Positions 37,215-52,180 of a stretch of DNA of 58,914 nucleotides are shown one piece after another. Every line of letters begins with the position of its first letter. Position 1 is the stretch's first letter. The stretch is from NCBI GenBank assembly GCA_030533085.1, contig JAUNJZ010000012.1:1-58914 (forward strand). Direction: 5' to 3'. Origin of the DNA: Synergistaceae bacterium (GTDB taxonomy: Bacteria; Synergistota; Synergistia; Synergistales; Synergistaceae). The notes under the pieces were generated by a model. The model saw nothing but the letters and a program-made list of their open reading frames with translations, was not told where the DNA came from and searched no databases. Position numbers and translations under genes: made by a program.

Positions 37215-37976
37215 ATGATAAAAATAGCTATCTATGGCAAGGGCGGCATAGGCAAATCCACAACGGCGTCGAATATCGCGGCGGCTTTCGCGCAGTCCGG
37301 GATGACTGTGATGCAGATAGGCTGCGACCCCAAGGCGGATTCTACCGTCTGTCTGCGGGGCGGACGTCCCCTTTCGACGGTGCTTGATCTTATTCGCGGA
37401 CGCGGAGGACGTCTTGAGCTTGAGGAGATGGTGACGCCAGGCTTCGCCGGAGTGCTCTGCGTCGAGGCGGGCGGCCCCGCTCCCGGGCTGGGCTGCGCCG
37501 GACGCGGCATAATCGCCGCGATGGAGAAGCTGGAAGAGAAAAAGGCCTTTGAGGTTTACAGGCCCGACGCGGTTATCTACGACGTGCTCGGCGACGTGGT
37601 CTGCGGCGGCTTTGCGATGCCGATACGCGAGGGCTACGCGGAGAAGGTGTTTGTCGTAACGTCGGGAGAGAATATGGCTATTCATGCGGCGGCCAATATC
37701 GCGCAGGCCGTGGCGAATTTCCGTTCGCGCGGTTACGCGAGCCTTGGCGGGATAATCCTCAACCGCCGCAATGTGCCGCGCGAGGATGAAAAGGTGGCTG
37801 AGCTGGCGGCGGACGTCGATTCTCGGCTTGTCGGCGCGCTGAATTTCAGCCCCTTCGTCCAGAGGGCGGAGGAGCTTTCTCAGACGGTGCTCGAGGCCTT
37901 TCCCGACAGTCCGATGGCGGAGGAGTATCGGGAGCTGGCGCGGCGCGTCCTCGCCGCCTGCGGGGAGACGCGATGA
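37215..37976 (+). CDS. Nitrogenase iron protein-like ATPase (NifH/BchL/CfbC superfamily)
   Basis: A 253-residue NifH-type reductase. It has the P-loop [19 protein letters not shown] (residues 5-23), switch region GCDPKADST, the first cluster Cys in [13 protein letters not shown] (about residue 96) and the second in [17 protein letters not shown] (about 131). Both ligands of the intersubunit [4Fe-4S] cluster are thus present, so it should pass electrons with ATP hydrolysis. It is shorter than NifH (about 290). ATG 37215 is chosen for the GGAGG 6 bases upstream; an in-frame ATG at 37191 lacks a site. Its partner subunits follow with 4-base overlaps. Confidence 0.92.
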
Positions 37977-39304
37977 TCGACCTTCATAATCCCGATTGGA
38001 GCGGGGCCTCCGTTCGGATAGCGGAGGCTGATTTTGAATCCCCTTACGAATATGGCCTTGAGTACGGCTCGCCGGCGCGCGGGCTGTGGAATATCGTGCA
38101 TACCGGTATGCTGCTGCCCGAAAGCCATCAGATATTTGTCTGCGCGCAGGGCTGCCTGCGCGGCGTCGTGCTGACGGCGGCGGAGATGGGGGCGCAGGAG
38201 CGTTTTTCAACGGTCGCCGTCTGCGAAAATAATGTTCTTGACGGCGATATGGAGGCGCTTATCATCGACGGAGTGACCGATGTGCTGAACAGGCTGCCGA
38301 AAAAGCCGCGGGCGGTGCTTGTCTTTACGAGCTGTATCCACCATTTCATGGGCTGCGACCTTGATTATGTCTACGCTCAGCTTCGCGGCCGCTTCCCTGA
38401 TATATATTTCACCGATTGCTATATGAATCCCATTATGCGCAAGACGAAGACTCCGCCTGACCCGATGATGCGGATGAGGCTCTACAGCTTCCTCGAAGCG
38501 GGGGAGCCTCGCGACGAGAGCTGTCTTAATATAATAGGGAACAATTATCCCACGGAGCTTTCGTCGGACTTTATGCGTATGCTGCGCGGCGCGGGGCTGG
38601 AAACGCGCGACATTACGCGCTGCGGCTCCTTCGACGACTATCGCCTCATGGCGCGCAGCCGCGCGAATATCGTCTATATGCCCGCCGCGCTTCCCGCCGC
38701 GCGCGATTTGAAAGAGCGGCTGGGGCAGGACTATATCTATATCCCGCTCAGCTACGACTACGGCGAGATAGAAAAAAATATCGCGGCGCTGGCCGCTTAT
38801 CTTGAAATTCCGGCTATCGACGCCGCAGCGCTGAGAAGCGAGGCGGAGGGGGCTCTTTCCATGGCCTCGCGGCTGCTGCGCGATACTCCCGTCGTGCTGG
38901 ATTACACCGCGACTCCGCGCCCGCTGGGGCTGGCGGAGCTGCTTCTGGAACATGGTTTTAACGTGCGCTCCGTCTACGCCGACGCCTTTATCGCGGAGGA
39001 GCGCCCTGCCTTTGAGCGTCTGCGCGCGAAATATCCGTCGCTGGAGCTGTGCGCGACGGTGCATCCCAAGATGGGGCTGCTGCCGCGCGCCGCCGCGCGC
39101 GAGAGGAAGGAAAAGATTGTCGCGATCGGTCAGAAGGCCGCGTACTTCTGCGATACTGAGTACTTCGTCAACATGCTCGAGGGGGGCGGACGCTGGGGGT
39201 TCGACGCTATAACGCATATCGCGGAGGAGCTGTGCGACGCTTTTATCAACGAAAAAGATACGAAAGGCATAATACAGATCAAGGGATGGGGGTGCTGCTG
39301 TTGA
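37973..39304 (+). CDS. Nitrogenase component 1-like protein, NifD-type subunit
   Basis: A 443-residue protein of the oxidoreductase/nitrogenase component 1 family. Cys positions resembling the cluster ligands of NifD/BchN are in [12 protein letters not shown] (about residues 52-56), [12 protein letters not shown] (about 82) and [19 protein letters not shown] (about 123-130). The C terminus ends WGCCC, which is unusual. FeMo-cofactor ligands could not be placed. The ATG overlaps the NifH-like stop (ATGA). It should pair with the next gene product to form the catalytic heterotetramer; substrate unknown. Confidence 0.85.
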
Positions 39305-40440
39305 AACAGAGCTGTTCCATACTGTCCACCTATACCGCCGACGTCTCCGGCGTCTGCTCGGCGCTTTACGAAATGGGCGGCATGACCGTGATGCACGACG
39401 CATCCGGCTGCAACTCGACCTACAATACGCACGACGAGCCGCGCTGGTATGATATGCCGTCGATGGTTTTTATCTCGGCGCTTGCCGAGGTGGACGCCCT
39501 GATGGGCGACGATGAAAAGGCGATCGACGATATCAGCCGCGCCGCGCTTGAGCTGCGGCCGCGCTTTGTCGCCATTGCCGGGACTCCGATCCCGATGATG
39601 ATGGGAACGGACTTCCGCGCTATGGCGCGTCTTGTCGAGGAGCGTACCGGAATCCCCTCCTTCGGCTTCGCCACAAATGGCATGAATTCTTACGATCAGG
39701 GCGCAGGGATGGCGCTGGCCGCCGTAGCCGAACGCTTTTGCCCGCCGGAGTTGAAGGCTGGGAAGCCTGCTGCCGGCGGGCGTCCCGCCATTAACCTGCT
39801 CGGCGTTACGCCGCTTGATTTTTCCATAGGCGGCAATGCCGGCGCGCTGAGAAAAATATTTGAAGAGAAGGGCTTCCGCGTCGTCAGCTGCTGGGCGATG
39901 GGCTCCCCTTGGGAAGAGCTGATGAAGGCGGGGGAGGCGAATGTCAATCTCGTCGTATCGTCATCCGGCGCGCCTCTTGCCAAGGCGCTGCGCAAGAAAT
40001 ACGGCGTTCCCTTCGTAACAGGGCTGCCGGTCGGCAGAAAGGCGAGCGACGACCTTTTCCGACTGTTGGAGGAAGCCGCTGCCGACGGCGAGAACAAAAT
40101 GCCGGAGCCTCCATCAAGCGGAGAGGACGGCAAGCTGTTCGTCGTCGGAGAGCCGGTGCAGAGCGCGGCGATAGCCCGCGCGCTGGAGCTCGACTACGCT
40201 ATGGAGGGGGTACGCCTCCTCTCCCCGCAGATTTTCCCGGACGAAGAGGCGGTATTCGCTGCTCTGAGCGGAGCGCGGACGGTTGTCGCCGATCCGCTCT
40301 ACCGTCCGGCCTTGCCGCGCGGCTGCCGCTTTGTCCCGCTGCCGCACGAAGGCTACTCCGGGCGCATCTACAGGAAGGATATACCGATATTTATCGGAGA
40401 GAGTTTCAACGATTGGATAGAAAGGGAGCTTGAGCTATGA
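39301..40440 (+). CDS. Nitrogenase component 1-like protein, NifK-type subunit
   Basis: A 379-residue partner subunit. The N-terminal part has TADVSGVCSALYEMGGM and HDASGCNSTYNTHDEPRW, which supply two Cys in the positions of NifK cluster ligands. At the position of the third ligand it reads IAGTPIPMMMGTDF, without Cys. A P-cluster is therefore unlikely and a simpler [4Fe-4S] cluster is inferred. TTG 39301 overlaps the previous stop (TTGA) and has GGGGGTG 6 bases upstream; ATG 39286 would add five residues but has no ribosome site. Confidence 0.85.
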   Translation: MKQSCSILSTYTADVSGVCSALYEMGGMTVMHDASGCNSTYNTHDEPRWYDMPSMVFISALAEVDALMGDDEKAIDDISRAALELRPRFVAIAGTPIPMMMGTDFRAMARLVEERTGIPSFGFATNGMNSYDQGAGMALAAVAERFCPPELKAGKPAAGGRPAINLLGVTPLDFSIGGNAGALRKIFEEKGFRVVSCWAMGSPWEELMKAGEANVNLVVSSSGAPLAKALRKKYGVPFVTGLPVGRKASDDLFRLLEEAAADGENKMPEPPSSGEDGKLFVVGEPVQSAAIARALELDYAMEGVRLLSPQIFPDEEAVFAALSGARTVVADPLYRPALPRGCRFVPLPHEGYSGRIYRKDIPIFIGESFNDWIERELEL

Positions 40441-41525
40441 AGATTCTGGCCGCTCTGATAATGAGCGCGATGATATTCGCTGGCGGCGCGGCCGAGGCCG
40501 CGCGCGTGATAACGGACGAAAACGGCGACAGCGTGACATTGCCGGAGAAGATAGAGCGCGTCGCGGTGGCGGGGATTCTCCCCTTCCCATCTGTAGTGAC
40601 GGTCTTTCTCGGCTCGGCGGAGAAGCTTGTCGGCATACCTCCCGCGTCGATGGGGGCGGCGAAGGCCGGACTGCTGGGCGAGCTTTTTCCGGAAATACTG
40701 AAGGCTGAGACGGGCTACAGCTCCGGCCTCGACCTGAATATCGAGGAGCTGATGAAGCTGCGCCCCGACGTGGTATTCTATCTCGCCGGCAATAAGGAGA
40801 TGGGACGGATGATAAGGAACGCGGGAATTGCCGCGGTCGCCGTTTCCCCGACAAAGTGGAATTACGACGTGCTTCGCACATACGACGAATGGATAAAGAC
40901 GCTGAGCCTGGTATTCCCTGAGAGCGCGAAGAGCGGGGAGGTTTCCGCCTACAGCAGGAAGGTCTATGAGGATATTCAGAAAAAGGTGAAAAAGCTCAGG
41001 CCGGAGGAACGGAAGAAAGTCCTCTTCCTCTTCCAGTACGACGATAAGCGCATGGTGACATCCGGCAAAAGCTTCTTCGGCCAATACTGGTGCGACGCGG
41101 TTGGCGCGCTGAACGCGGCGGAGGAGGTTCCCGCCGACAACTCAAACGCTCTTATCACTATGGAGCAGGTCTACAAATGGAATCCGGACGTGATATTCAT
41201 TACCAACTTTACCTCCGCGCTGCCGGAAGATCTCTACGGAAATAAGATCGGCGGCCACCGCTGGGATGCTGTTGCTGCTGTAAAGGAGCGCGCGGTCTAT
41301 AAGATGCCGCTCGGCACATACCGCAGCTATACCCCCGGCGTCGATACCCCCGTGACCCTTATGTGGATGGCGCAGAAGGTCTACCCGCAGCTCTTTAAGG
41401 ATGTAGATATGAAAAAAGAGACGCGCGGTTACTATAAAAAGCTCTACGGCATCACGCTGAGCGACGGACAGATAGAGCGCATGTACAATCAGGGGCGCGC
41501 TTCGGCGGCCGGCTTCGTCAATTAG
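40437..41525 (+). CDS. Periplasmic substrate-binding protein, FecB/BtuF type
   Basis: A 362-residue protein with a cleavable signal peptide (MKILAALIMSAMIFAGGAAEAA) and the two-lobed Peripla_BP_2 fold linked by a long helix. Segments such as GLDLNIEELMKLRPDVVFYL, and a C-terminal region ending SDGQIERMYNQG, fit the family that binds siderophores, haem, cobalamin and other metal chelates. The ligand cannot be read from the sequence. The ATG overlaps the NifK-like stop by 4 bases, so it belongs to the same operon. Confidence 0.88.
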   Translation: MKILAALIMSAMIFAGGAAEAARVITDENGDSVTLPEKIERVAVAGILPFPSVVTVFLGSAEKLVGIPPASMGAAKAGLLGELFPEILKAETGYSSGLDLNIEELMKLRPDVVFYLAGNKEMGRMIRNAGIAAVAVSPTKWNYDVLRTYDEWIKTLSLVFPESAKSGEVSAYSRKVYEDIQKKVKKLRPEERKKVLFLFQYDDKRMVTSGKSFFGQYWCDAVGALNAAEEVPADNSNALITMEQVYKWNPDVIFITNFTSALPEDLYGNKIGGHRWDAVAAVKERAVYKMPLGTYRSYTPGVDTPVTLMWMAQKVYPQLFKDVDMKKETRGYYKKLYGITLSDGQIERMYNQGRASAAGFVN

Positions 41526-41527
41526 CC

Positions 41528-42532
41528 ATGAAAAGGCGGAGGATTGCGCTCGCGGCGATGGCGGCGCTGCTGCTGGCCGCGCCGCTGGCGGCTCTTACGG
41601 TTGGACGCTTTCCCGTCTCTATCTCCGAGACGCTGGCGGCGCTCTTCCCCTATATTGCCGGAGGAAGGGAAACAGATCAGATGGTTCGCGACGTGATACT
41701 GAACATCCGTCTGCCGCGCGTGCTGCTTGCGATGCTGGCCGGAGCGGGACTCGGCGTCGCGGGCGGCGCCTTTCAGTCGCTCTTCTCCAATCCTCTCGCC
41801 ACCCCCGACACATTGGGAGTGGCTACCGGAGCCTCCTTCGGCGCGGTGCTTGGGATTCTGCTGGGGCTTCCGTCTCCGCTGGTGCAGCTCTCGGCGCTGC
41901 TCATGGGGCTGCTCTCAGTCGCGATAGTGGCCGCAGTCAGCCGCGTGCGGGGCTCTTCTCCCGTGATAATGATGATACTGGCCGGCATGGTCGTCAGCGC
42001 GCTCTTTTCCGCCCTCGTCTCGCTGGTGAAATATGTCGCTGACCCGCAGGATGTGCTTCCGGCGATAACATTCTGGCTGATGGGCAGCCTCTCCTCCGCG
42101 ACGCGCGGCAGCCTCGCGATGGGGGCTCCGATGATAATATTCGGCACGGCGCTGATATGGCTGCTGCGCTGGAAGCTCAACGCCATGACGCTGAGCGACG
42201 ACGAGGCGGCCTCGCTCGGGATAAATGTGAAGAGAATAAGGCTGCTTGTGATAACGGGGGCGGCGATGATAACCGGCTCCGTCGTCTCCATGTGCGGGCT
42301 CATCGGCTGGGTGGGGCTGCTAATACCGCACGCCGCGCGGATGATATTCGGAAGCGACAACCGCTGCGTCGTGCCGGCGAGCATCGTGCTGGGGGCGCTT
42401 TTTATGCTCGCCATCGACACGGCGGCGCGCAGCCTGACGGCCTCTGAAATACCGGCCTCAATACTGACCTCGGTCATCGGCGCTCCATTCTTCATACTGC
42501 TGCTGAGAAAGACGGGAGGGGTACGGGGATGA
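41528..42532 (+). CDS. FecCD/BtuC-type ABC transporter permease
   Basis: A 334-residue permease with about ten helices. FecCD motifs include IRLPRVLLAMLAGAGLGVAGGAFQSLFSNPLATPDTLGVATGA (only the RLPR and NPLA-P-x-x-LG elements are needed for the call) and CGLIGWVGLLIPHAARMIFG near the C terminus. It should form the homodimeric channel for the chelate delivered by the upstream binding protein. The gap to the preceding stop is two bases, and it overlaps the ATPase start by 4 bases. Confidence 0.93.
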   Translation: MKRRRIALAAMAALLLAAPLAALTVGRFPVSISETLAALFPYIAGGRETDQMVRDVILNIRLPRVLLAMLAGAGLGVAGGAFQSLFSNPLATPDTLGVATGASFGAVLGILLGLPSPLVQLSALLMGLLSVAIVAAVSRVRGSSPVIMMILAGMVVSALFSALVSLVKYVADPQDVLPAITFWLMGSLSSATRGSLAMGAPMIIFGTALIWLLRWKLNAMTLSDDEAASLGINVKRIRLLVITGAAMITGSVVSMCGLIGWVGLLIPHAARMIFGSDNRCVVPASIVLGALFMLAIDTAARSLTASEIPASILTSVIGAPFFILLLRKTGGVRG

Positions 42533-43590
42533 ATTTCGAGGTGCGCGGCGGATATTTCAGCTACGACGGCGAGAACGGCAGCCTGTGCGATATAAATTTC
42601 AATGTGAGAGAGCCGGAGATATTATCAGTTTTAGGCGCGAACGGCGCGGGAAAGACGACGCTGATAAGATGCGCTCTGGGGCTGAGGCCGTGGCGAAAGG
42701 GCGCTTCATATCTTGACGGCGTGGATATCAGGAAGATGCGCTCAGGAGAATTCTGGCGGCGCGTCGGCTACGTGCCGCAGGCGAAGCTCTCCTCCTTCGT
42801 ATACACAGTTCGAGAAATGACGCTGCTGGGACGCAGCGCTCATATCGGCGCTCTGGGGACCCCAGGGGCGAACGACATGAAAATTGCCGAAGAGGCGATG
42901 GAGCTGGCCGGGATCAAGCATCTTGCCGATAAGCTGTGCAGCAGGATAAGCGGCGGAGAATATCAGCTCGTCATGATAGCGCGCGCGCTGGCGGCGCGCC
43001 CCTCCCTGCTTGTGCTGGACGAGCCGGAGTCAAATCTCGACTTCAAAAACCAGCGGGCGGTGCTGCGCGTCATATCTACGCTCTGTAAAGAGCGCGGCAT
43101 AGCGGCGCTGATAAACACTCATTATCCGGAACACGCGATGGACATATCTCAGAAAGCCCTGCTGCTGACGGCGCGCAGCGGCGCGATATTCGGCGCGGCG
43201 GAGAAGGTGCTTACGGAAGAGAACATGAAAGAGGCCTTCGACATAGCGGTACACATACAGCGCTTCAAGGTCGGAAGGAGAAGCTACGCGAGCGTTCTGC
43301 CTATGGACGAAGAGGATAAAAAACAGACGGAAAGGCTGATACCGATGGAAACAAGAATAGCGCAGATAGGAATAATCGTTGAGGAACCGGCGGCGGTGGA
43401 AAAGATAAACCAGCTGCTGCATGAATACAGCGAATATATAATAGGGCGGATGGGAATGCCTTACCGCGAACGCAACATCTCGATAATAAGCCTTATCATC
43501 GACGCGCCGAACGAAAAGATAAGCGCCCTCTCCGGCAAGCTGGGCATGTTCGACGGAGTGAGCGCGAAGACGGTATATTCAAAGATATAA
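42529..43590 (+). CDS. FepC/BtuD-type ATPase fused to a TM1266-like regulatory domain
   Basis: A 353-residue protein. Residues 1-245 are an ABC ATPase with Walker A LGANGAGKTTLIRC, Q-loop VPQAK, signature ISGGEYQLVMIARAL and Walker B LLVLDEPESNLDF. After a charged linker, residues 273-353 form an extra domain (IGRMGMPYRERNISIISLII, ISALSGKLGMFDGVSAKTV) matching the ACT-like TM1266 family, known as a putative regulator of [FeFe]-hydrogenase maturation systems. The fusion is in frame and uninterrupted. An internal ATG at 43345 opens exactly at the extra domain, so a separate product is possible. Confidence 0.88.
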   Translation: MNFEVRGGYFSYDGENGSLCDINFNVREPEILSVLGANGAGKTTLIRCALGLRPWRKGASYLDGVDIRKMRSGEFWRRVGYVPQAKLSSFVYTVREMTLLGRSAHIGALGTPGANDMKIAEEAMELAGIKHLADKLCSRISGGEYQLVMIARALAARPSLLVLDEPESNLDFKNQRAVLRVISTLCKERGIAALINTHYPEHAMDISQKALLLTARSGAIFGAAEKVLTEENMKEAFDIAVHIQRFKVGRRSYASVLPMDEEDKKQTERLIPMETRIAQIGIIVEEPAAVEKINQLLHEYSEYIIGRMGMPYRERNISIISLIIDAPNEKISALSGKLGMFDGVSAKTVYSKI

Positions 43591-43600
43591 TCCGCCCTCA

Positions 43601-43909
43601 TCACATGTGATTTCCCCATTCCCGCATAAGGAAGTCCCGCAGATTTTCTCTGTCTGAGGCCGCCCTGCCTGCCGGAAGCGTCTCATACAGTGTTTTGGAG
43701 AGGGCGCGCTCCAGCTCGCCGGAGGTGAAATCATAGCCGAGACTCCGCAGCGCGTCTCCGCGCCTCCTCTCAGGCAGCAGCAGCGCGATATCCATAAATC
43801 TGGCGCGCATGTCGCTGTCTTCCAGCAGGTCGTAAAGGAAATCGGCCGCTCCGCGCTTTTCCTTCCGCCCCGTTTTCAGAATCGACCCCAAAATATTTAT
43901 TCCCATCAT
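43601..43909 (-). CDS. Small Nif11-like protein
   Basis: A 102-residue protein. The segment FLYDLLEDSDMRARFMDIAL followed by LRSLGYDFTSGELERALSK resembles the Nif11 domain (FL..L..D..LR...., then A...GYDFT..EL..A). That domain is found in nitrogen-fixation clusters and as leader of some RiPP precursors. No Gly-Gly cleavage site or Cys/Ser/Thr-rich core is present, so a RiPP precursor is unlikely. AGGAGT lies 8 bases before the ATG. It converges on the nitrogenase-like operon. Its promoter shares a 23-base motif with the arn operon. Confidence 0.6.
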   Translation of the reverse strand: MMGINILGSILKTGRKEKRGAADFLYDLLEDSDMRARFMDIALLLPERRRGDALRSLGYDFTSGELERALSKTLYETLPAGRAASDRENLRDFLMREWGNHM

Positions 43910-49745: not shown

Positions 49746-49802
49746 CACGCCGAAAAGCGGAGCCGGAATCCTCCGCAGTGACTTTTTATAACTGAATATT
49801 AT

Positions 49803-50012
49803 TCTTTGGAGTATGGGAATCCGGTTAAAAGCCGGAACGGCCCCTGCCACCGTAATCGGGACAAAGCCGCGTAACGCCACTGTCGAAAGATGGGAAGGAG
49901 CGGCAAGCGAAAAGCCGGAACGCGAACTACAGCGATTCCGCGCCGGACGCTTATCAGAGTGAAGCAAATGCTCTGAAACAGAGGATGAACGAAAGTCGGG
50001 AAACCTGCCAAG
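49803..50012 (+). promoter_or_regulatory. Cobalamin (B12) riboswitch
   Basis: The leader carries the class I/II cobalamin aptamer elements in order: GGGAATCCGGTTAAAAGCCGG (P3-like start, quoted in part), CCTGCCACCGTAATCGGG, the B12-box region GCCACTGTCGAAAGATGGGAAGG (GCCACTG being diagnostic) and the 3' segment AAACCTGCC. The ends are approximate. It precedes a TonB receptor and is followed by a strong terminator, so cobalamin should switch transcription off. Confidence 0.93.
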
Positions 50013-50070
50013 GGAGAGCTAGTGGCTTTAAATGCGCAGAGGGCGCATGGCAGCGGCCTGCCGGCGATAA

Positions 50071-50133: not shown

Positions 50134-52180
50134 TTGAGATTAAAAGCCGGTTCGGTCATCTTCTTTCTGCTTCTTTTTGTATTACAGATAGCCCCCCCCC
50201 CATCAGATATGTAGTCTGTTTGTCAGCCCCAGCGACGCGGCGGAGGCTCCGGTCGCACTTCCGGAAGTGTCGGTTACAGCCGACGCCGAAGAAGAGGACA
50301 AGCTGCTGCTCTCCCCCGGCACAGTCACAGTCATTCGCCCGCAGGAAATGAAGGGCGAGCAGAAAAACCTCCCCGAACTCCTGAAACAGGTCCCGGGGCT
50401 TCATATAATAGAACTCAGGGGACGCGGCTCCTACACCACCGCCTCAGTGCGCGGCAGCACCGCCTCGCAGGTAGCCGTCTACGTGGACGGCGTACTGATG
50501 AACCTCGGCAGCGAAGCCGCCGTCGACCTTTCAACAATACCCGTTGAAAACGTCGAGCGCATAGAAGTCTACCGCGGCTACATTCCGGCGCGCTTCGGCG
50601 GCGCATCCATGGGCGGCGTCATCAACATCATCACGAAAAAACCCGACGGCAAAGGAGAAGGCTCGCTCTCCCTCGGCGCCGGCTCCTACGGCAAATTCCG
50701 CGCCAACGCCGCGTACAGCACGAAGCTCGGCGACGGCAATATATTCGTCGGCGTCACGCGCGACCAGGCCAACGGCGAATTTACCTACCTCAACAGCCGC
50801 AACGAATACGACCCGAACGACGACTACTGGGCGAAGCGCAAAAACAACTCCTACCAGAACACAGACGCCCTTATCAAATGGCAGAACGAAAACTGGACGA
50901 TTGAAGGAGCGTGGAAGCGCAACGACCGCGACCTGCCGCTGCCCATCATAGGCATCGAAAGCGACAAATCCTGGGAAAAAGGCCCTAAACAGGTCACAGA
51001 CCAGATGAGCTTCGCCGCCTCCCACCGCCGCGAAATAGGGGCGCTCGACCTCGGCCTGCGCCTTGAATATCTCCATCAGGAAAAGAAATACGACGACCCG
51101 AAAGAGGGCGACAGCCAGTTCGGCCTCCCCGGCTACAAAAACAAACACAACCGCTACCTCACAGACCGCTACGGCGTCGCGCTTGACGGCTCGCTGCCCG
51201 TCGGCGAAAGCCACCTGGTAGAATTTCTCTGGAACTACTACGACGAAACGCTGCGCACAAAAGGCGACATAGTTGAAAGCTACCCCGCGCTCAACGCCAC
51301 GGAAAAACATACCCGCTACGCATGGAACGGACAGATACAGGACACCATCAGCCTCAACAGGAAAGACAACCTCTGGCTCACGCCCATTATCCGCTGGAAC
51401 AGCGCCGACGGCCGCACCGAATTCTCCGGCGGCGCGGCGCTCAACTACAAATTTGACGAGCACTGGAGCGCGAAGGCCACCTACGGCACATACAACCGCG
51501 CGCCGAACATGTACGAGCTATACGGAGACGGCGCCTTCGTCGCCCCCAGCCTGGGGCTTGAATGGGAAGAGGGCACCCAGTGGGACGTGGGCGTCAGCTG
51601 GAAGGGCGACCTCTTCAAAGGCAAAAGCGAAGTAACCCTCACCTGGTTCGGCAGCCATGTGGAAAACCTCATCGAATACTTCGTCGTCAACCCGCAATAC
51701 GCGCGCTACGAGAACGTCGGCAAAGCCCACATCAAAGGGCTTGAGCTGGAAGGCTCCGTCAAATGGGAGGACTGGGAGATATACGGCTCCGCCACCTGGA
51801 TGGAGGCGATAGATAAATCAGACGACAGCGCCTTCGACGGCGTGCGCATCCCCAACCGTCCCGAATACGAGGGCTTCCTGCGCGTCGCGCGCGGCAACCT
51901 GCTCAAAAGCAAACAGCTCTCCGCCTTCGCCGAGGCGCGCTACATAGGCAACAACTTCTACGACCGCAAACAGGAGGTCAAACAGGACGACCTGCTGACG
52001 CTCGGCCTCGGCCTGCGCTACAGCGTCAGAGAAGACCTCAAGCTTGTCGTCGGCGTGGACGACATCTTTGACCGCGGGCCGGAGGTCTTCTTCCTCGCGG
52101 AAGGCTACGGCCCCGACCGCACCATGTGGTATCCGCTTCAGGGACGCACCTTCTACGCGACGCTGATATGGACCTTCTGA
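50134..52180 (+). CDS. btuB: TonB-dependent cobalamin receptor (BtuB-like), out of frame at a C10 tract
   Basis: An outer-membrane receptor. After GGAGGT, TTG 50134 opens a signal-peptide-like stretch (RLKAGSVIFFLLLFVLQIA). This runs into ten C (50192-50201) and then a TAG at 50212. The remaining 637 residues are open from about 50215 in another frame and hold a full plug domain (VSVTADAEEEDKLLLSPGTV, QVPGLHIIELRG, GGVINIITKKPDG) and a 22-strand-type barrel ending in an aromatic residue (LQGRTFYATLIWTF). Removing one C, or adding two, joins both parts. This may be phase variation or a sequencing error. The riboswitch points to cobalamin as the ligand. Confidence 0.85.
50192..50201 (+). repeat. 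Poly-C tract of 10 in the receptor signal-peptide region
   Basis: Ten consecutive C. With this length the signal peptide ends at a TAG 11 bases later; with 9 (or 12) C it is in frame with the receptor body. Confidence 0.95.

Follow-up and report, generated by a model that had tools for sequence, protein, structure and literature searches.

NifHEN-like genes have already been described as neighbors of ABC transporters and, in Coprococcus catus, of hydrogenase maturation proteins, and a role in metallocluster assembly was suggested for such clusters (Dos Santos 2012, PMC3464626). In the portion of this source consulted, these Group IV nitrogenase-like (Nfl) clusters are presented with no mention of a TM1266 fusion, of HydG loss or of an alternation between importer and Hyp genes, and HydG is nowhere named in its text. 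Regarding the transporters, MetNI and ModABC are held by their C-terminal ATPase domains, which bind ligand at the interface of the dimer (PMC10710835). Our analysis concerned a stretch of 58,914 nucleotides (hereafter the window) from the genome of a Synergistaceae bacterium, an anaerobic gut-type organism (G000), in which an importer ATPase carries a C-terminal TM1266 domain and closes a nitrogenase-like operon. Through this fusion, an importer, a nitrogenase-like enzyme and hydrogenase cofactor assembly are physically connected, and a testable job is offered to the TM1266 family, for which a structure is available and, to our knowledge, no function is known; indeed, we are aware of no TM1266 protein for which a ligand has been demonstrated.

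The open reading frame check gave a single unbroken frame of 353 aa (42529–43590, + strand), which matches PF00005 as well as PF21699/TIGR03959 and for which the AlphaFold2 model reached a pLDDT of 90.8. Its nucleotide-binding domain (residues 1–260; 42529–43308, +) is BtuD/HmuV/HI1470-like and displays the Walker A (GANGAGKTT), signature (SGGE), Walker B (LLVLDEPE) and H-loop (NTHYPEH) motifs; with all motifs in place and with a FecCD permease and a Peripla_BP_2 substrate-binding protein (SBP) adjoining, it belongs to a type II (BtuCD/FecCD) ABC importer. The nearest folds to this part of the whole-protein model were HI1470 (2nq2, Z 31.1), heme importers and MetN. A flexible linker follows (residues 261–274; 43309–43350, +), with a pLDDT falling to about 66–71 in blocks 261–280, and then the TM1266 domain (residues 276–351; 43354–43581, +), for which profiles, structure matches and the model agree on a beta-alpha-beta-beta-alpha-beta fold.

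The earlier note, which was made from the letters alone, had assigned the last 81 residues (273–353) to TM1266, and this assignment was borne out, the scored domain being 276–351. Indeed, PF21699 aligned with residues 276–348 over its full 74-position model (E 9.6e-33, 112 bits for a cut-off of 27) and TIGR03959 with residues 276–351 (E 1.6e-33, 114 bits for a cut-off of 60.8). A NIL domain, which that note had named as the competing assignment, gave no match in the fused ATPase at E up to 1 in the profile search, so a MetN-type tail was ruled out against TM1266 at 1e-32. By sequence, the best solved structure for the tail was 2nzc (TM1266 itself, E 5.5e-16). When modelled alone, the tail reached a pLDDT of 95.8 with the same beta-alpha-beta-beta-alpha-beta fold and matched 2nzc with Z 16.1, rmsd 0.8 and 47% identity over 79 residues, followed by NikR C-terminal domains (Z about 13) and ACT domains (Z about 11); the predicted fold is thus of the NikR-C/ACT-like type. 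In the alignment, N22, L25, H26, R35, G37 and P39 were common to the tail and the TM1266 family. The 353-aa protein therefore holds a TM1266 domain and is not a stand-alone TM1266 protein. Note that a second, stand-alone TM1266 gene lies beside HydF on contig C53 of the same genome, and the two domains do not group together in the tree. In addition, the description of TM1266 as a normally stand-alone protein encoded near [FeFe]-hydrogenase maturation genes agreed with the genomes read, in many of which TM1266 genes adjoin HydE/HydF.

Comparison with known systems situates the fusion more precisely. Like MetN, the ATPase of the MetNI methionine importer with its C2/NIL domain, our protein ends in a small domain set off by a linker, the sizes are similar (about 344 vs 353 aa), and the ATPase parts match (Z 27.5); however, MetN combines a NIL tail with a MetI-type importer, whereas here a TM1266 tail accompanies a FecCD/BtuCD-type importer and gating is putative, so that the likeness is one of arrangement and not of family. 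TM1266 of 2nzc shares the fold and the conserved residues, but what is known under that name is a separate protein of the [FeFe]-hydrogenase system and not an ATPase tail in a nitrogenase-like operon. The C-terminal nickel-binding domain of NikR, the second-best fold (Z about 13), also gave a weak profile match to the tail, and His26 of the tail aligns with a NikR histidine; nevertheless, the LHVH histidines and the cysteine are replaced in the tail, which moreover has no DNA-binding domain. Taking the NikR nickel site to consist of four ligands (three His and one Cys), we rejected such a site in the tail because three of the four are not conserved. Finally, among solved structures the ATPase is closest to that of the HI1470–HI1472 metal-chelate importer (2nq2, 3psa; 3.8e-40, Z 31), whose SBP also matches that of the window strongly by profile, but HI1470 has no C-terminal domain.

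The earlier note did not mention the nitrogenase-like operon around the ATPase, in which neighboring genes overlap or lie apart by only a few bases and the fused ATPase is the last, in the order NifH-NflD1-NflD2-SBP-FecCD-ATPase::TM1266, all on the + strand. It opens with a NifH-like reductase (37215–37976; PF00142, 1.6e-86), whose ATG is preceded by a strong Shine-Dalgarno (SD) sequence (GGAGGCGGAGGAATGTT), and continues with two nitrogenase component 1-like proteins, NflD1 (37973–39304; PF00148, 1.4e-15) and NflD2 (39286–40440; PF00148, 5.1e-32; start set by comparison with L118), the SBP (40437–41525; PF01497, 9.5e-17; profile matches to 4ovk at 1.4e-77 and to HI_1472 at 1.7e-37) and the FecCD/BtuC-type permease (41528–42532; PF01032, 4.5e-86). 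No Nfl protein exceeded the cut-off of a nitrogenase equivalog such as NifD or NifK (the best score was 69 bits to NifE, for a cut-off of 505), and an N2-fixing nitrogenase was rejected on these scores. Upstream of NifH in the window, no Rfam match was found, so no riboswitch control was seen there, and a promoter scan performed no better than chance.

The earlier note had proposed a survey of ABC ATPases for the fusion, and our search of related genomes recovered it repeatedly. TM1266 matched in 87 of the 188 genomes of the phylum, and it was fused to the ATPase in eight Synergistaceae genomes of five genera (G000, G137, G138, G167, G169, G170, G171 and G172); SBP and permease always lie upstream, and NifH-NflD1-NflD2 wherever the contig extends so far. 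An assembly or frameshift artefact that joined two genes has practically no probability, since the same fusion recurs in these eight genomes, and two of them are single-contig assemblies, which excludes an assembly join. A second fusion was found in the Clostridia G319 and G511, in a different gene order and with a free TM1266 also kept in the operon. A single clade of fused operons was rejected by the NifH+NflD1+NflD2 tree (p-AU 1.1e-26) and by the ATPase tree (p-AU 0.001), while the same test on the short domain tree (81 columns) gave a p-AU of 0.42. Because the Nfl and ATPase trees thus reject a single origin, the join was probably made twice, apparently independently, which argues for the usefulness of the fusion. 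In Candidatus Merdivicinus (L035), the same operon has a 56% identical ATPase with a separate TM1266 gene directly after it. As a separate observation, tandem TM1266 gene pairs occur in another family of the order (G069:C5:55413–55895 and G071:C13:28716–29198).

Unfused relatives place the operon in a hydrogenase context. In the Clostridial locus L134, HydE-NifH-NflD1-NflD2-SBP-Perm-ATPase-HydF-TM1266 follow one another in a row, with HydE, HydF and TM1266 all over their cut-offs, an order that links the operon with [FeFe]-hydrogenase maturation; HydE immediately precedes NifH in L035, L118 and L134. These Hyd maturation genes adjoin the orthologous operons of L134, L035 and L118, but not the window operon itself. 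In other Clostridia, TM1266-HydF-HydE lies beside NflD1, NflD2 and NifH and is accompanied by a second pair, NflD3-NflD4, with HypF-HypD-HypE; the second pair leads straight into the Hyp genes, with the first Nfl set and with the importer absent, in L136:1–13668, L137:1176–12230, L138:4574–15568 and L139:2691–14064. Another group of operons, which we called type A (L123, L124, L125, L126, L129, L143, L144 and L145), has the same NflHDE + SBP + FecCD + ATPase order, but the ATPase has no TM1266 tail and neither TM1266 nor Hyd genes lie in the vicinity. These operons group in a separate clade with good support, and those of Clostridia are found mainly in genomes that have HydG, so the core operon can serve another role. 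Note that stand-alone TM1266 genes were also seen beside an ABC importer of a different kind (NMT1-type) in Lachnospiraceae and another Clostridia genome (L038, L041, L043, L045 and L051, 8972–11455).

The distribution of the maturation genes was surveyed in 323 Clostridia-class genomes with a completeness of 90 or more. HydG exceeded its cut-off in 206 of them and in none of the 15 genomes with strong Nfl (E below 1e-120 to the Nfl model, a cut picked after the list was seen; Fisher 1.3e-7), and HydF exceeded its own in all 15 vs one of the 65 other HydG-less genomes (80 tested, Fisher 2.4e-15); the genomes counted are not independent, and the p values overstate the evidence. The 15 genomes are G190, G243, G254, G299, G312, G319, G331, G366, G373, G388, G445, G461, G468, G499 and G511, with L050, L134, L136 and L138 as example loci. 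No Hyd-linked Nfl set had a best E above 1e-131, five weaker sets ranged from 1e-116 to 1e-81, and the cut lies between the two groups; among the weaker sets, the three loci read were all of type A and four of the five carriers have HydG. A lone exception was G333, where TM1266-HydE-HydF (L142:7047–9544) occurs and no match to HydG or Nfl passed the threshold. In G188, a sub-threshold HydG-like match adjoins a ThiE-like gene and, on inspection of the sequence by eye, is probably ThiH.

Among the Synergistaceae fusion carriers, HydG was absent in the near-complete G167, G169 and G172 (HydF being present in the last two) and present in the five others, namely G000 (contig C58), G137, G138, G170 and G171. 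The pattern of Nfl and HydF without HydG, which holds for all 15 Clostridia as well as for G169 and G172, is thus not that of G000, and replacement of HydG cannot be claimed for the genome of the window. In HydG-positive carriers, the operon is either dispensable for H-cluster assembly or active under other conditions. The Hyp genes add a further distinction: HypD was absent from all 13 importer-type carriers (the eight Synergistaceae, G188, G254, G319, G388 and G511) and present in all 16 two-pair carriers, of which four (G243, G331, G366 and G445) were typed from two Nfl matches alone, and the two-pair loci that were read had no importer. Since HypD is absent with the importer and present with two pairs, this alternation suggests that the importer supplies what the second Nfl pair and HypF/HypD/HypE otherwise provide. 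On the whole, the Nfl operon appears to stand in for a missing H-cluster maturation step in many anaerobes.

Taken as a whole, the locus is best explained, with belief and doubt in equal measure, by a gated importer that would serve NflHDE in [FeFe]-hydrogenase cofactor assembly, with the TM1266 tail as its sensor. The metal-chelate-type (BtuCD/FecCD) importer would serve the nitrogenase-like NifH-NflD1-NflD2, which would act in cofactor assembly as a HydG-independent route to H-cluster ligands or their precursors. By analogy with MetN and ModC, the tail may be a cytoplasmic sensor present in two copies per ATPase dimer, which would bind either a compound made along the pathway, final or intermediate (Fe-S or organometallic in nature), or the ligand brought in by the importer; ligand-bound tails would then pair and hold the ATPase domains in a non-hydrolysing state, and uptake would be halted when the precursor is plentiful. 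Going beyond the window, and leaning slightly towards doubt, we propose that a HydG-independent NflHDE pathway makes a CO/CN-ligated iron precursor of the H-cluster, together with either a second Nfl pair and HypF/HypD/HypE or the importer, which would bring in a precursor or ligand source equivalent to that precursor, and that TM1266 acts as the sensor that matches importer uptake to the demand for cofactor, a coupling that two lineages have made direct by fusing it to the ATPase.

Other readings of the operon have to be weighed against this gated importer. The operon could have nothing to do with hydrogenase and serve to take up and reduce metal chelates or tetrapyrroles, in which case the tail would gate uptake by sensing cellular iron or Fe-S status only. 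Nitrogenase-like enzymes already known reduce tetrapyrroles, the ATPase resembles HI1470 and heme importers and the SBP resembles HI_1472, and type A operons display the same NflHDE + SBP + FecCD + ATPase order outside any TM1266 or Hyd linkage. However, the branch to which the window operon belongs has HydE, HydF and TM1266 as immediate neighbors and goes strictly with HydG loss in Clostridia, and we consider this reading rather unlikely. It is quite improbable that the tail is a docking tether and not a gate, placing the importer in contact with HydE/HydF or the Nfl proteins so that the precursor is handed over directly: the flexible linker, the apparently independent origin of two fusions to this ATPase and the frequent vicinity of TM1266 and HydE/HydF genes would all suit a tether, but the G319 and G511 operons retain a second, free TM1266 that a simple tether would not need.

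A further reading concerns the internal ATG (43345–43347, +), which the earlier note correctly placed exactly at the domain start and from which it considered a separate product possible. According to this reading, the ATG would yield a free TM1266 besides the fused ATPase, the free form would be the working one and the fusion a by-product of a lost stop codon. The ATG and a preceding AGG are kept in all eight Synergistaceae fusions, and the METR start context (MENS in G167) is also that of a stand-alone TM1266 gene, in L035. Nevertheless, the weak SD-like GGAAAGG at 43329–43335 (+) is ordinary within its gene: duplex energies of GAAAGG ranged from −2.6 to −6.6 kcal/mol across the eight fusion genes, 28–50% of the positions of the same gene were equally good in six of them, and the duplex energy test gave internal initiation no support. 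The Clostridial fusions of G319 and G511 no longer have this Met, and all Synergistaceae carriers other than G167 already have a free TM1266 elsewhere. The free product is thus very improbable, and the ATG is best explained, judging from the retention of METR (or MENS) in the Synergistaceae fusions, as the former start codon of a once separate TM1266 gene.

Judged against the open-access literature, in which no paper joining HydG loss with nitrogenase-like genes was found, the novel parts seem to be the fusion and its apparent recurrence, as well as the co-occurrence in HydG-less genomes and the alternation of importer and Hyp genes. They provide a pointer to H-cluster assembly without HydG in many gut anaerobes; if true, the proposed pathway would extend the nitrogenase fold to a new biological use and reveal a new origin for CO/CN ligands, with consequences for genome-based prediction of hydrogen production by gut bacteria. 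Elsewhere in the window, a small ORF of 102 aa (43601–43909, −), convergent with the operon, gave a sub-threshold Nif11-like match (E about 0.03), and a cobalamin riboswitch (49790–50026, +) lies just before a TonB-dependent receptor gene (50267–52180).
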